Positions 27,394-31,575 of a DNA stretch of 38,176 nucleotides are shown piece by piece (the stretch's first letter is position 1; every line of letters starts with the position of its first letter). This stretch comes from Deltaproteobacteria bacterium (GTDB lineage: Bacteria > Desulfobacterota > Deferrisomatia > Deferrisomatales > BM512), in contig PKTT01000067.1 in assembly GCA_002869015.1 (NCBI GenBank), positions 1 through 38,176 on the forward strand, given 5' to 3'. Made by a program: the position numbers and the translations under genes. The notes beneath the pieces are model-generated. The model ran no database searches. It was not told the DNA's origin and worked only from the letters and a program-made list of their open reading frames with translations.

Positions 27394-27678
27394 ATGCTTT
27401 GCCAGACAGTTAAAAAAGATAAAGAGTGCCTCTTCTGGTCCGCAGGCGGCTGCGCACAAGAAACAGGCAAATGTCATATCGTGGACGAGAAGTGCGAAGG
27501 CTGCGCCCGTGTCGAAGAGTGGCCCACCGGCAAATATTGCGCAACCTACGCCCATCCAGAAAACCAGTGGGATTTGGGCGTCTGCAACATGGCGACCCAC
27601 ATCAAGGCAGAGGCTGCGGCGGAAGCACGTTTCGTCAACCCCCTCAAAGCCTCCAAGCGAGCAGGCGGTCGCCGCTAG
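27394..27678 (+). CDS. Small Cys-rich protein, PxxKW-type family
   Basis: The 94-residue protein has eight cysteines (C3, C12, C20, C27, C34, C37, C49, C64), including C-x2-C at 34-37. It ends in the conserved tail N-P-L-K-A-S-K-R followed by basic residues. This layout matches, from memory, the family annotated as 'PxxKW family cysteine-rich protein' in Deltaproteobacteria; the function is unknown. Metal or iron-sulfur binding in the cytoplasm is inferred from the cysteine pattern and the lack of a signal peptide. AGGAGG lies 9 bases before the ATG and a promoter candidate is upstream. Its TAG shares the bases CTAG with the stop of the convergent DUF502 gene. A minus-strand frame over the same bases lacks any such support. 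Confidence 0.8.
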   Translation: MLCQTVKKDKECLFWSAGGCAQETGKCHIVDEKCEGCARVEEWPTGKYCATYAHPENQWDLGVCNMATHIKAEAAAEARFVNPLKASKRAGGRR

Positions 27679-28385
27679 GCACCCTCTTCATTGCCAGTCT
27701 CTACGGCCCGTCCCTTCTGGGGGCGGGCCTTTTTATTCCCCTGGTAATTCTGGTCCCCCACCATACCCGCGCTCATCAACATCCTAAACGCCTGCTCAAC
27801 TGAGATATCAAGCCTGATAAGCTGATCCGAGGGGATCATCAGGTAGAACCCTGATGTCGGGTTGGGGGTTGTCGGGATGAAGATATTCACGACCTTGGAG
27901 GCCGTACGCTCCTGAATCTCTCCTCTGGTATCGCCCGTTACGAAAGCGAGGGAGTAGATTCCCTTCCGCGGGTACTCGACAAGCACCACTCCACGGAATC
28001 TGTCGGACCCCTTCCCCTGAAACTCCTCGAGAAGATTGAATACAGCCTCCATCATCTGCTTTAAGACGACGTAGAGCCAGCGCACCCCCGGAATCCTCTC
28101 AAGGAGGTTCTCATATCCTTCGAGAATCTTCTTACCCAAATAATTGGAGCTTATCGCGCCTACGATGTAGATGATGATGATGGTGAGTATCACCCCCAGC
28201 CCGGGCACCCGAAATGGGATATAGCTTTGCGGATTGAACCTCGGAGGAAGCGTCGACAACTGGCTCATTAAGACTTCGTCAAGCCAGTTAACCAGATATA
28301 CTGTTAATACAATTGGAACGAAGACAAGGACACCCGTGAGGAAGTGCCTCTTCATCGCTGACTTTACCTTTGCGAAAAAACCCAT
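27675..28385 (-). CDS. DUF502 family membrane protein
   Basis: The 236-residue protein has two membrane segments (about 18-36 and 58-85). The family signatures follow: F-V-P-I-V-L-T-V-Y, P-G-V-R-W-L-Y-V-V-L-K-Q, V-V-L-V-E-Y-P-R-K-G and I-F-I-P-T-T-P-N-P-T-S-G-F. DUF502 proteins are found across bacteria and plant chloroplasts; the function is not established. The last 20 residues are a polar tail that coincides with the terminator of the opposite gene and may be under dual constraint. ATG 28383-28385 has GAGAGG 7 bases upstream; a GTG two codons earlier is too close to it. It is the last gene of the panC operon. Confidence 0.88.
   Translation of the reverse strand: MGFFAKVKSAMKRHFLTGVLVFVPIVLTVYLVNWLDEVLMSQLSTLPPRFNPQSYIPFRVPGLGVILTIIIIYIVGAISSNYLGKKILEGYENLLERIPGVRWLYVVLKQMMEAVFNLLEEFQGKGSDRFRGVVLVEYPRKGIYSLAFVTGDTRGEIQERTASKVVNIFIPTTPNPTSGFYLMIPSDQLIRLDISVEQAFRMLMSAGMVGDQNYQGNKKARPQKGRAVETGNEEGA
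27705..27737 (+). terminator. Intrinsic terminator of the Cys-rich gene, inside the DUF502 coding region
   Basis: GGCCCGTCCC (27705-27714) pairs with GGGGCGGGCC (27720-27729), 10 pairs including one T-G wobble, and TTTTTATT follows. It lies 26 bases after the plus-strand stop and within the last codons of the convergent gene. Confidence 0.85.
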
Positions 28386-28418
28386 CGGCACGCCTCTCAG
28401 GTAGCAAGAATCAAATGT

Positions 28419-29585
28419 TCAACTTGTTGTCAAAATCCCCGCTGAAACCGTGGAGGATAGTATCCGCTCTTCCAGCGTCCATCCCTGCCCCAATTCCCTT
28501 ACGAGTATATCAGCCTTGAGACCCGGGGCGAAAGCCCCTCTTTCACCGGACACCCCAAGCACCGCCGCCCCTCCGCTCGTCGCGGCACGCAATGCCTCCG
28601 TGACCGTCCACCCGTAATCTTCAACCGCCGCCTTAACATCCCCCCAAAGGTCAAGGTCTCCACCGGATAGAGATGAATCGGTGCCGAGTCCCGTAGGCAT
28701 AGCTGAGTCCAGGATAATCCTGCCCGGGGCGTTGCCGACACCTAGATTTCTGTTTGAGCGGGGGCAGAGCACCGATGAGACGTTCGCTTTCGAAAGACGG
28801 GTTACATCTTCGGCGGAGACATTGACCAGATGAACGGCGATAAAGCCGCCGCCTAGCACCGCCGGGTTGAGGAGGTAATCCACAGGGGAGGCTTTAGGGC
28901 TCCTAGGCGGCTCAACAGGCAGCGGCCCAAATACTAACTCGGGAATTTTTCCGCCGCCATTCAGGAGGAACTCGACCTCATCTGAAGATTCGGCCAGGTG
29001 CGTGAAGATTGGCAGCCCTTTGGCGCGGGCATAAAGCGCTGCTTCTCGGTAGGCTTCGGCGCATACGGTATATGGGGAATGGAGGAAAACTCCACCCTTC
29101 GCCCCTTCTAAACCCTCCGAAATCCCCTTGGCGCTCTCAGCCGAGGGACATATAACCTCCCTGCTCGGGATAACCATTGCCCCATCTGCCGGGTATGCGC
29201 TCTCTACTCCAGCAACGCTTACCACATCCGCAACGACTCCCTGTCCCAGGGCACGACACGCCCTTGCGCCATCCGCCGCCGCCTCAAAAAAGCGTTCGGT
29301 ATTCGTGGCACGCTTTATAGCTATGACCTCAGCTATCCATTGGGAAAATGAAAGTCCGGGTGTGACTTCTCCGATTTCGGTCAACTCAAGGTGAGCGTGG
29401 CAATTGACCATTGAGGGCATCAGGAGCGATTCTTCAAAATGCTCCCGCGCGGCTTTTGGGTGACGCGCTGCTAACTCTTCCACGCTTCCCGCCGCAATTA
29501 TCTTGCCTCGGTCAACGAGAACCGCCCCATCTTTCAGGGGCGGGTTGATTCCATCAAAAATTACAGCTGCGCTTATCAGCTTCAC
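28419..29585 (-). CDS. Amidohydrolase, possible aminofutalosine/nucleoside deaminase
   Basis: The 388-residue protein is a metal-dependent TIM-barrel hydrolase of the cytosine deaminase/chlorohydrolase group. Ligands in the expected places are H63 and H65 (N-C-H-A-H-L-E), H196 (F-T-H-L-A-E-S), H252 (V-H-L-V-N-V) and D303 (G-T-D-S-S-L-S). The N- and C-terminal beta segments form the usual urease-type side domain. Members with this pattern include S-adenosylhomocysteine deaminase and the aminodeoxyfutalosine deaminase of futalosine-pathway menaquinone synthesis. The second is attractive in an anaerobe with multiheme cytochromes, but nothing here proves it. The GTG start overlaps the panD stop by 4 bases. 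Confidence 0.8.
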
Positions 29586-29944
29586 TTTGAGGCCATCTTG
29601 GTTACGCGGTTTTGCCCGTCAACGTAAGTCAGCTTTGGCTTCCACTCCATGGCCTCTTTCTCATCGACGTAAACGTAGCAGCAGATGATTATTATATCGC
29701 CGGCGCTGGCTTTGTGTGCTGCGGCGCCATTTACGCAAATTATACCGCTGCCGCGCTCACCGGCTATCGTATAGGTGGCAAAGCGTTCGCCATTCGTAAC
29801 GTTGTAAATCTGGACCTCCTCATATGGGAGGATGCCCGCTGCTTCCATCAGGTTTTCATCAATGGCTATGGAGCCCTCATAATGGAGGTCTGCACCAGTA
29901 ACTGTGCAACGGTGGATTTTTCCCTGCAACATCCTGCGCTTCAT
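29582..29944 (-). CDS. panD: Aspartate 1-decarboxylase
   Basis: PanD makes beta-alanine from aspartate for pantothenate. The 120-residue proenzyme self-cleaves between G24 and S25 (Y-E-G-S) to form its pyruvoyl group. K9 (L-Q-G-K-I-H-R), Y58 in the N-G-E-R-F-A-T-Y segment and the N-G-A-A-A-H motif are in place. AAGGAG lies about 10 bases before the ATG. It is 28 bases downstream of panC. panB (ketopantoate hydroxymethyltransferase) is not in the window. Confidence 0.96.
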
Positions 29945-29972: not shown

Positions 29973-30818
29973 TTAACGCGCCACGAGGACACGGTTATCT
30001 ATAAGTCTTGTGGTTCCCACATAGGCAGCTATCGCCAGCAGCAGGTTCCCTTTAAGAGATTCTATTCTGTCGAGGTTCTCTGCCCCCAAGAGTTCGACAT
30101 AATCGATTTCGAGATTGGCCGCCTCCAAAACTGACCTCACCTCCGAGATAAGCTCGGCAGGTTCTATTAACCCGCCACCTACCAGCTCCTCTGCCTTGTC
30201 GAGAGATTTTGAGAGCGCCAGGGCCCTCTGCCGCTCTGGGTCAGAGAGGTATTTATTCCTGCTGCTCATCGCAAGGCCGTCAGGTTCGCGGATTATAGGC
30301 ATACCCTCTATCCTGACGCCGACGTTTAAGTCCTTGACCATTCGCTCAATAACTTTGAGCTGCTGGTAATCCTTCATACCAAAATAGGCATCATCCGCAG
30401 CTGACATATTAAACAGCTTTAAAACTACAGTGCACACACCGTCAAAGTGCCCCGGCCGGTGCGCGCCGCAGAGTGGTTTCGTTATATGCTCAAGGTGCAC
30501 AACCGACTGAAATCCCTCCGGGTACACATCCTCGGGAGTAGGGATAAAGAGCAGATCAACCCCTGCCGCATCGAGAAGCGCTTCATCCCGAGCCAAATCC
30601 CTCGGGTATTTATCAAGGTCCTCACCGGGGCCAAATTGCGTTGGGTTTACGAAAATCGAAACGATCACGAAGTCGTTTCTCTCACGGGCGCGCCTGACCA
30701 ACGAGAGGTGGCCCTCATGGAGATATCCCATAGTCGGGACAAGTCCTACCGTGAGGCCCTCCTCCTTGGCCTCCAGCGATAGCTCCCGCAGCTTTTCAGG
30801 CGATGAAATCTTAAGCAT
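29973..30818 (-). CDS. panC: Pantothenate synthetase
   Basis: PanC ligates pantoate with beta-alanine using ATP. The 281-residue protein has the nucleotide motif V-P-T-M-G-Y-L-H-E-G-H-L-S-L near 28-40, F-V-N-P-T-Q-F-G-P-G-E-D, G-M-K-D-Y-Q-Q and M-S-S-R-N-K-Y-L-S, all conserved. ATG 30816-30818 has AAGG 7 bases upstream and lies just after the T-run of the leader terminator. A TTG two codons earlier (30822-30824) is less likely. Read-through of that terminator appears to be required for expression of panC, panD and the two genes after them. Confidence 0.95.
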   Translation of the reverse strand: MLKISSPEKLRELSLEAKEEGLTVGLVPTMGYLHEGHLSLVRRARERNDFVIVSIFVNPTQFGPGEDLDKYPRDLARDEALLDAAGVDLLFIPTPEDVYPEGFQSVVHLEHITKPLCGAHRPGHFDGVCTVVLKLFNMSAADDAYFGMKDYQQLKVIERMVKDLNVGVRIEGMPIIREPDGLAMSSRNKYLSDPERQRALALSKSLDKAEELVGGGLIEPAELISEVRSVLEAANLEIDYVELLGAENLDRIESLKGNLLLAIAAYVGTTRLIDNRVLVAR

Positions 30819-30828
30819 ATTCAAACCT

Positions 30829-30867
30829 TAAAACAAAAAAAGCGCCCCACCTTATCGGACGGGACGC
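30829..30867 (-). terminator. Leader terminator just upstream of panC (attenuator)
   Basis: On the minus strand GCGTCCCGTC (30867-30858) pairs with GGTGGGGCGC (30851-30842) to give 10 pairs with wobbles around a 6-base loop. TTTTTTTGTTTT follows. It ends about 4 bases before the AAGG of panC, so it must be bypassed to express the operon. Its 5' arm can instead pair with an upstream segment (see the leader entry). Confidence 0.85.
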
Positions 30868-30914
30868 GCAATGGTCGGCGCGGGCCTTGTCGGGCGCTCA
30901 CGCACTCCTTGCAT
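30852..30914 (-). CDS. Possible 20-residue leader peptide of panC
   Basis: ATG (30914-30912) opens MQGVRERPTRPAPTIARPVR and stops at TAA (30854-30852), which falls in the terminator loop. Five of 20 residues are Arg and four are Pro. GGAAAGAG upstream is a modest ribosome binding site. A ribosome ending here would cover terminator arms 3 and 4, which could favour read-through. It may equally be chance in a structured GC-rich leader. Confidence 0.3.
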   Translation of the reverse strand: MQGVRERPTRPAPTIARPVR

Positions 30915-30968
30915 ACTCTTTCCGTCCCGGTCCTTTTTTACGGATCCAAGCGTAGTGTGCTCTCTACC

Positions 30969-30977
30969 ATTATAGCA
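30969..30977 (-). promoter_or_regulatory. Extended -10 promoter of the panC leader
   Basis: On the minus strand TGC-TATAAT (30977-30969) is a perfect -10 with the TGn extension. The nearest TTGACA (30990-30985) is only 10 bases away, too near to act as its -35. Transcription would start near 30962. Confidence 0.65.
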
Positions 30978-30987
30978 CAACCGCTGT

Positions 30988-31000
30988 CAACCAGTGGTTG
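30988..31000. promoter_or_regulatory. Palindrome in the panC/coaD divergent control region
   Basis: CAACCA-G-TGGTTG is a perfect 13-base palindrome. It is centred about 20 bases upstream of the panC leader -10 and 24 bases before the coaD -35. A shared operator is plausible. Confidence 0.35.
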
Positions 31001-31083: not shown

Positions 31084-31575
31084 TTGAAGGGTTCCGTCGC
31101 AGTCTACCCAGGAAGCTTCGACCCGATAACCAATGGGCACGTTGACATTATCTCCAGAGCCTCCAAGGTTTTCGACAAGTTGGTGGTGCTGATAGCGGTT
31201 AATAGCGAGAAGAAGGGGCTCTTCACCCTTAAGGAGCGTTGCGAACTCATTAGGGAGGTTTTCAAAGACTGCCCAAACATTGAGGTGGACTCCTTTGAGG
31301 GCCTTCTGGTGGAATACCTTAAGAAAAGAGATATTCCCGTGGTCATAAGAGGGCTGAGGGCGGTATCGGATTTTGAGTATGAATTTCAGATGGCGCTGAT
31401 GAACCGTCGCATCTATTCCGGTGTCGAAACTTTTTTCATGGCATCGAGTGAGAACTGTTCTTATATAAGCTCCAGGATCGTAAAAGAGATATTCAGCCTG
31501 GGAGCATCGATAAGCGATCTGGCACCCGAAGCGGTCGTATCCGCTATGAACAAAAAATTTGCAGGGTCTAAATAG
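31084..31575 (+). CDS. coaD: Phosphopantetheine adenylyltransferase
   Basis: CoaD adenylates 4'-phosphopantetheine to dephospho-CoA. The 163 residues have the nucleotidyltransferase motif Y-P-G-S-F-D-P-I-T-N-G-H (T16-N-G-H19) and V-I-R-G-L-R. The C-terminal Y-I-S-S-R-I-V-K-E signature is also present. The start is TTG with GAGGAG 6 bases before it. In related genomes coaD often follows rsmD; here it stands at the head of a plus-strand transcript and faces panC. Genes for two separate stages of CoA synthesis therefore share one intergenic region. Confidence 0.96.
   Translation: MKGSVAVYPGSFDPITNGHVDIISRASKVFDKLVVLIAVNSEKKGLFTLKERCELIREVFKDCPNIEVDSFEGLLVEYLKKRDIPVVIRGLRAVSDFEYEFQMALMNRRIYSGVETFFMASSENCSYISSRIVKEIFSLGASISDLAPEAVVSAMNKKFAGSK

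Follow-up and report, generated by a model that had tools for sequence, protein, structure and literature searches.

The pan motif was described by Weinberg et al. in 2010 (PMC2864571) as a stem with two conserved bulged adenines that lies upstream of panB, panC or panD, and its tandem arrangement led these authors to propose a binding site for a dimeric protein. A literature search for a pan RNA ligand, which left most subscription papers uncovered, returned that paper and passing RNA-seq mentions, and none of these names a ligand. Here, we analysed a 38,176-nt stretch of a deltaproteobacterial genome (contig PKTT01000067.1; hereafter, the window) whose panC-panD leader had been predicted to form mutually exclusive helices and guessed to be a pan RNA. 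Our results make it very likely that this leader is a transcriptional attenuator that works as an OFF switch and whose sensor is a single pan-type hairpin, right at the transcript's 5' end.

Architecture of the panC-panD leader

On the minus strand, between about 30990 and 30816, the leader region begins with a TTGACA box and a probable -10 box; the hairpin comes next and is separated by 54 nt from a terminator, beyond which lies the Shine-Dalgarno sequence of panC (Table 1). The three overlapping helices at the heart of the original prediction all occur, base for base, where it had placed them. The first, given as 30950-30942 paired with 30933-30926, is real and proved to be longer, because pairs 30952-30923 and 30951-30924 extend it beyond a second bulged adenine. 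The complete pan hairpin has 10 pairs (30952-30946 and 30944-30942 with 30923-30924, 30926-30930 and 30931-30933), including a U30948-G30928 wobble, and where one bulged adenine had been claimed it carries two, A30945 and A30925. The second helix, the antiterminator (30933-30923 with 30866-30857), consists of 10 pairs and one bulged C, and the third, the terminator (30867-30858 with 30851-30842), of 10 pairs with a run of seven U behind them (30841-30835). The U-run ends 5 nt before the AAGG at 30829-30826, so the terminator is as close to the panC Shine-Dalgarno sequence as had been predicted. The pan hairpin and the terminator can coexist, while each excludes the antiterminator, with which it has a strand in common.

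Among the ten panC leaders of the host's order, nine have TTGACA and the tenth TTGACG, with the box and the hairpin a near-constant distance apart. The strong extended -10 that had been proposed (TATAAT, 30974-30969) lies only 10 nt from this conserved -35 box (30990-30985), and comparison of the leaders favours 30966-30961 as the probable -10 box instead. Given the conserved TTGACA distance, transcription would start about 2-10 nt 5' of the hairpin with either -10, which would leave no room for a first pan hairpin. Upstream, coaD, a later CoA-pathway gene (31084-31575, plus strand), is divergent from panC and has the intergenic region in common with it; several relatives have the same divergent order.

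Table 1 Features of the panC-panD leader and presumed operon in the window
Feature	Coordinates	Strand	Basis
panC-panD promoter, -35 box TTGACA	30985..30990	-	Near-constant distance to hairpin in 9/10 panC leaders of the order
Probable -10 box TAGAGA, 18-nt spacer	30961..30966	-	Comparative position
Rival extended -10 TGCTATAAT	30977-30969	-	Read from sequence only
Single pan hairpin, presumed sensor	30922..30953	-	Rfam pan 24.6 bits; model R1; covariation in 100 relatives
Switch strand: pan 3' arm and antiterminator 5' arm	30923..30933	-	Pairs with 30857-30866
Unconserved spacer separating pan hairpin from terminator, contains a local hairpin	30868..30921	-	54 nt
Intrinsic terminator stem-loop GCGUCCCGUC/GGUGGGGCGC; 5' arm also antiterminator 3' arm	30842..30867	-	-15.0 kcal/mol
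Terminator U-run, seven U	30835..30841	-	Sequence
AAGG Shine-Dalgarno, 7 nt 5' of ATG 30818	30826..30829	-	Sequence
panC, pantoate--beta-alanine ligase, likely start ATG 30818	29973..30824	-	TIGR00018, 328.9 bits (cut-off 212.75)
panD, aspartate 1-decarboxylase, same operon as panC	29582..29944	-	TIGR00223
Amidohydrolase, overlaps panD stop	28419..29585	-	Nearest NCBIfam model aminofutalosine-deaminase-like, below its cut-off
DUF502 protein, end of presumed operon	27675..28391	-	PF04367

Relation to the pan RNA motif

An Rfam scan of the whole window gave one match above cut-off, a tRNA, and no pan RNA. In a permissive scan of 501 bases, the pan model (RF01749) matched on the right strand and at the right place with 24.6 bits (E 0.05), the sole noteworthy sub-threshold match; weak matches to Yfr1, ceN70, RUF6-5 and BjrC68 were at chance level. 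The covariance scan that the original prediction had called for therefore did return pan, but below the gathering cut-off of 36.2 bits, because the Rfam model describes a tandem pair of hairpins, whereas the leader has a single one. The second hairpin of the Rfam consensus aligns closely to the window hairpin, both bulged adenines included. We rejected the first hairpin of that alignment, which contains several non-standard pairs and falls in the promoter. The tandem arrangement, stated for most but not all pan RNAs, is absent from the window. The guess of a pan RNA was thus borne out for the 5' hairpin (30952-30923), which is pan-type with both signature adenines; judged by its sequence and its place, it is a pan RNA as originally described, a stem with two bulged adenines upstream of pan genes.

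Distribution of the hairpin in relatives

In the host's order we found ten panC genes, each preceded by the same single hairpin and by a downstream terminator-like stem with a T-tract (an automated terminator finder missed one of these stems and chose a different stem in another leader). We built a single-hairpin covariance model, R1, from only these ten leaders. R1 finds the window hairpin with a genome-wide E of 5e-7, the window sequence itself being in the model, and because it was built from the panC leaders of one order, its matches elsewhere constitute an independent test. At E <= 0.1, R1 matched in 133 of 297 genomes of the host's phylum; the Rfam pan model exceeded its own cut-off in 19. 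The great majority of the tabulated sites (126/139) precede panB, panC, panD or genes connected with these. The first pathway gene is panB at 69 sites, panC at 43, a DUF2520 Rossmann gene with panB behind it at 7, hxlB at 4, an aldehyde:ferredoxin oxidoreductase (AOR) gene heading a panB operon at 2 and panD at 1. The 13 sites that lack a pathway gene are mostly weak matches, and eleven weak R1 matches of this kind were set aside as probable chance. Among 80 panC loci from named genomes of several phyla, R1 matched 22 at E <= 5, most strongly in Deltaproteobacteria and Nitrospinota.

Pan hairpins precede hxlB-hxlA in three families; hxlB encodes 6-phospho-3-hexuloisomerase (TIGR03127 at one locus) and is followed by the gene for hexulose-6-phosphate synthase and, at one locus, by a panE-like gene. 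PanB needs a one-carbon unit, and a formaldehyde link of hxlB-hxlA to the pan regulon is conceivable. The DUF2520/Rossmann gene follows pan hairpins in several phyla (13 loci), often before panB, and some of its products show weak ApbA/PanE similarity; it is a candidate for an alternative ketopantoate reductase. The aldehyde:ferredoxin oxidoreductase gene heads panB operons under a pan hairpin at two loci, in one of which it is followed by a small MoaD-like ORF and the operon reads panB-panC-panD.

One hairpin or two

We looked for second hairpins with a pan hairpin descriptor, which picks up 119 of the 126 known ones. It detected a second hairpin in only 4 of 126 leaders of the host's phylum, against 1.35 expected, the other 122 having one only. 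Tandems are detectable by the same descriptor: at L102, a Bacillota locus that scores 58 bits with the Rfam model, it reports both hairpins. A pass of the Rfam cut-off is itself no proof of a tandem, since the first hairpin is not evident in the AT-rich leaders of some deltaproteobacterial passes.

In seven loci of Lachnospiraceae type, we observed only the other hairpin type (GGUAUYC..GRAACYGCAYC), directly before DUF2520. An obvious terminator was not noted in several of them, and translational control there is possible. These patterns raise the idea that the 'pan motif' comprises two related but distinct modules, each able to act alone, which we hold to be tenable though rather short of probable. 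Module B (CGCUUGGAUC..GACYGRGACG) would then account for the window and most sites in its phylum, module A for the Lachnospiraceae hairpins before DUF2520, and both in tandem for the Rfam form, as in L102.

Covariation and the expression platform

Within the host's order the stem is too invariant to reveal covariation, so a phylum-wide set was needed. Across 100 aligned relatives, 98.3% of stem cells are paired and 5 of 11 pairs vary on both sides. Both-side changes occupied 62 cells, compared with 16.3 +- 3.9 in shuffles (0/500), and sliding the strands destroyed the signal; these controls are a partial answer to the fact that the alignment was fitted to the model and so leans towards structure. 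The bulged adenines are invariant in the aligned relatives and the U-G wobble nearly so (93/95).

Of 120 leaders, 106 have a terminator (dG < -10 kcal/mol) between the hairpin and the gene, versus 19 when leaders were shuffled. The 5' arm of the terminator pairs with the 3' arm of the pan hairpin and its tail, commonly AAGG, at a mean of -12.4 kcal/mol, versus -9.9 kcal/mol with shuffled arms. When arms were instead permuted among leaders, the matched mean was reached in none of 300 permutations for panB leaders and in 2 of 300 for panC leaders. With one locus per DNA-similarity cluster, which removes shared ancestry only in part, a mean of 2.6 of 200 permutations reached the observed value (range 0-12 over 20 draws). 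Single loci are weak, as only 25% beat 95% of their shuffled arms. The absence of covariation that had been named as contrary evidence was thus not what we found: the stem covaries, as do terminator and pan arm. The proposed switch logic of mutually exclusive helices fared equally well, the platform having an intrinsic terminator and a leader's own arms outdoing permuted partners. A minority of leaders lack a terminator, among them five in which the pan hairpin stands about 12-15 nt before panC; such members must work differently, perhaps at translation, and the five probably act on access of the ribosome.

Folded without constraints as far as the last base of the terminator, the leader formed the pan hairpin and the terminator together. 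Forced folds gave -47.8 kcal/mol for this state versus -46.9 kcal/mol for the antiterminator, whose duplex (30933-30923 with 30866-30857) accounts for -18.8 kcal/mol. The two alternative states in the window are therefore predicted to be nearly balanced, such that a modest binding energy would tip them. The total folding energy of the leader is unexceptional (z -1.5 to -1.8) and uninformative as a test, and the case for more than a chance fold is comparative rather than energetic.

Proposed mechanism and alternative explanations

We propose that a shortage of the effector would let the pan hairpin open, and that its 3' strand would then capture the 5' strand of the terminator, allowing read-through into panC-panD. 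Binding of the effector would stabilise the pan hairpin, the terminator would form and transcription would stop, giving feedback repression. The same design probably turns vitamin B5 genes off in many relatives once the vitamin, or what is made from it, is abundant. More tentatively, the effector may be pantothenate or a compound made from it, for example CoA. In the host genome, panB is unlinked to panC-panD and R1 has one match only, which puts panC and panD under the switch but leaves panB outside it. Because the element controls only panC-panD in the host's order, with panB elsewhere and lacking it, pantothenate or CoA would fit better than pantoate, an odd choice of OFF signal given that PanC uses it as substrate.

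In this same attenuator the pan hairpin might be bound by a regulatory protein and not by a metabolite, an explanation that we take seriously but judge somewhat unlikely. The motif is a simple bulged stem lacking an evident pocket, and a dimeric protein site has been proposed for it (PMC2864571); its invariant adenines and almost invariant wobble would suit protein and metabolite alike. However, because one hairpin suffices, as the low count of second hairpins indicates, the dimeric argument fails in the host's phylum, and no candidate regulatory protein was identified.

The direction of the switch could also be reversed, with effector binding favouring read-through, as some riboswitches do act as ON switches. 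This is improbable, since the pan hairpin and the antiterminator have a strand in common and a stabilised pan hairpin can only favour the terminator. Still less likely is a non-regulatory 5' UTR that combines a chance hairpin with the terminator of some upstream transcript. The ordinary folding energy of the leader would agree with it, but the divergence of coaD leaves no adjoining co-directional gene to terminate, and conservation across families and the association with pan genes speak against it. Leader-peptide attenuation, in which ribosome position decides the fold, is the least credible, as the sole short frame seen (10 codons from an ATG at 30970, stop 30940-30938, no conserved leader ORF being found) does overlap the hairpin but begins in the -10 region, over the TATAAT box and before either of the likely start sites. 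In many relatives, moreover, hairpin and terminator are a mere 10-20 nt or so apart, which leaves no space to encode a leader peptide, and it is the sequence of the hairpin that shows conservation and covariation.

If the leader is indeed a one-hairpin OFF switch on panC-panD alone, the search for the ligand would narrow to pantothenate and the compounds that follow it in the CoA pathway, and an RNA of about 30 nt would rank among the smallest natural sensors.

Comparison with known systems

The pan hairpin type and its place at pan genes have been known since 2010 (PMC2864571). What our comparisons appear to add is a single-hairpin architecture across a large group, a conserved antiterminator and new regulon members. 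A minimal one-hairpin pan RNA with a clear terminator/antiterminator platform, present in dozens of families, offers a simple test object for the sensed signal and shows that the tandem pairing on which the dimeric-protein idea was based is dispensable. Bringing the DUF2520 protein and hxlB-hxlA into the pan regulon makes the functions of these genes testable.

The leader resembles single-hairpin attenuating riboswitches of the preQ1-I type in having a very small presumed sensor with a strand in common with the adjoining expression platform; it differs from them in sequence and genes. Feedback control of pantothenate synthesis is a likeness to the PanD-PanZ system (PMC4410942), a CoA-dependent inhibition of pantothenate synthesis that controls PanD at the protein level, whereas control in the window would reside in the mRNA leader. 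The closest likeness is to the pan RNA motif itself (RF01749; PMC2864571), with which the window has in common the two conserved bulged adenines, a near-identical second-hairpin sequence (UGGAUCC..GGACCGGGAC) and a position upstream of panB, panC or panD. The window departs from that motif in its one hairpin, its sub-cut-off score and a terminator coupled to the hairpin through a conserved antiterminator.
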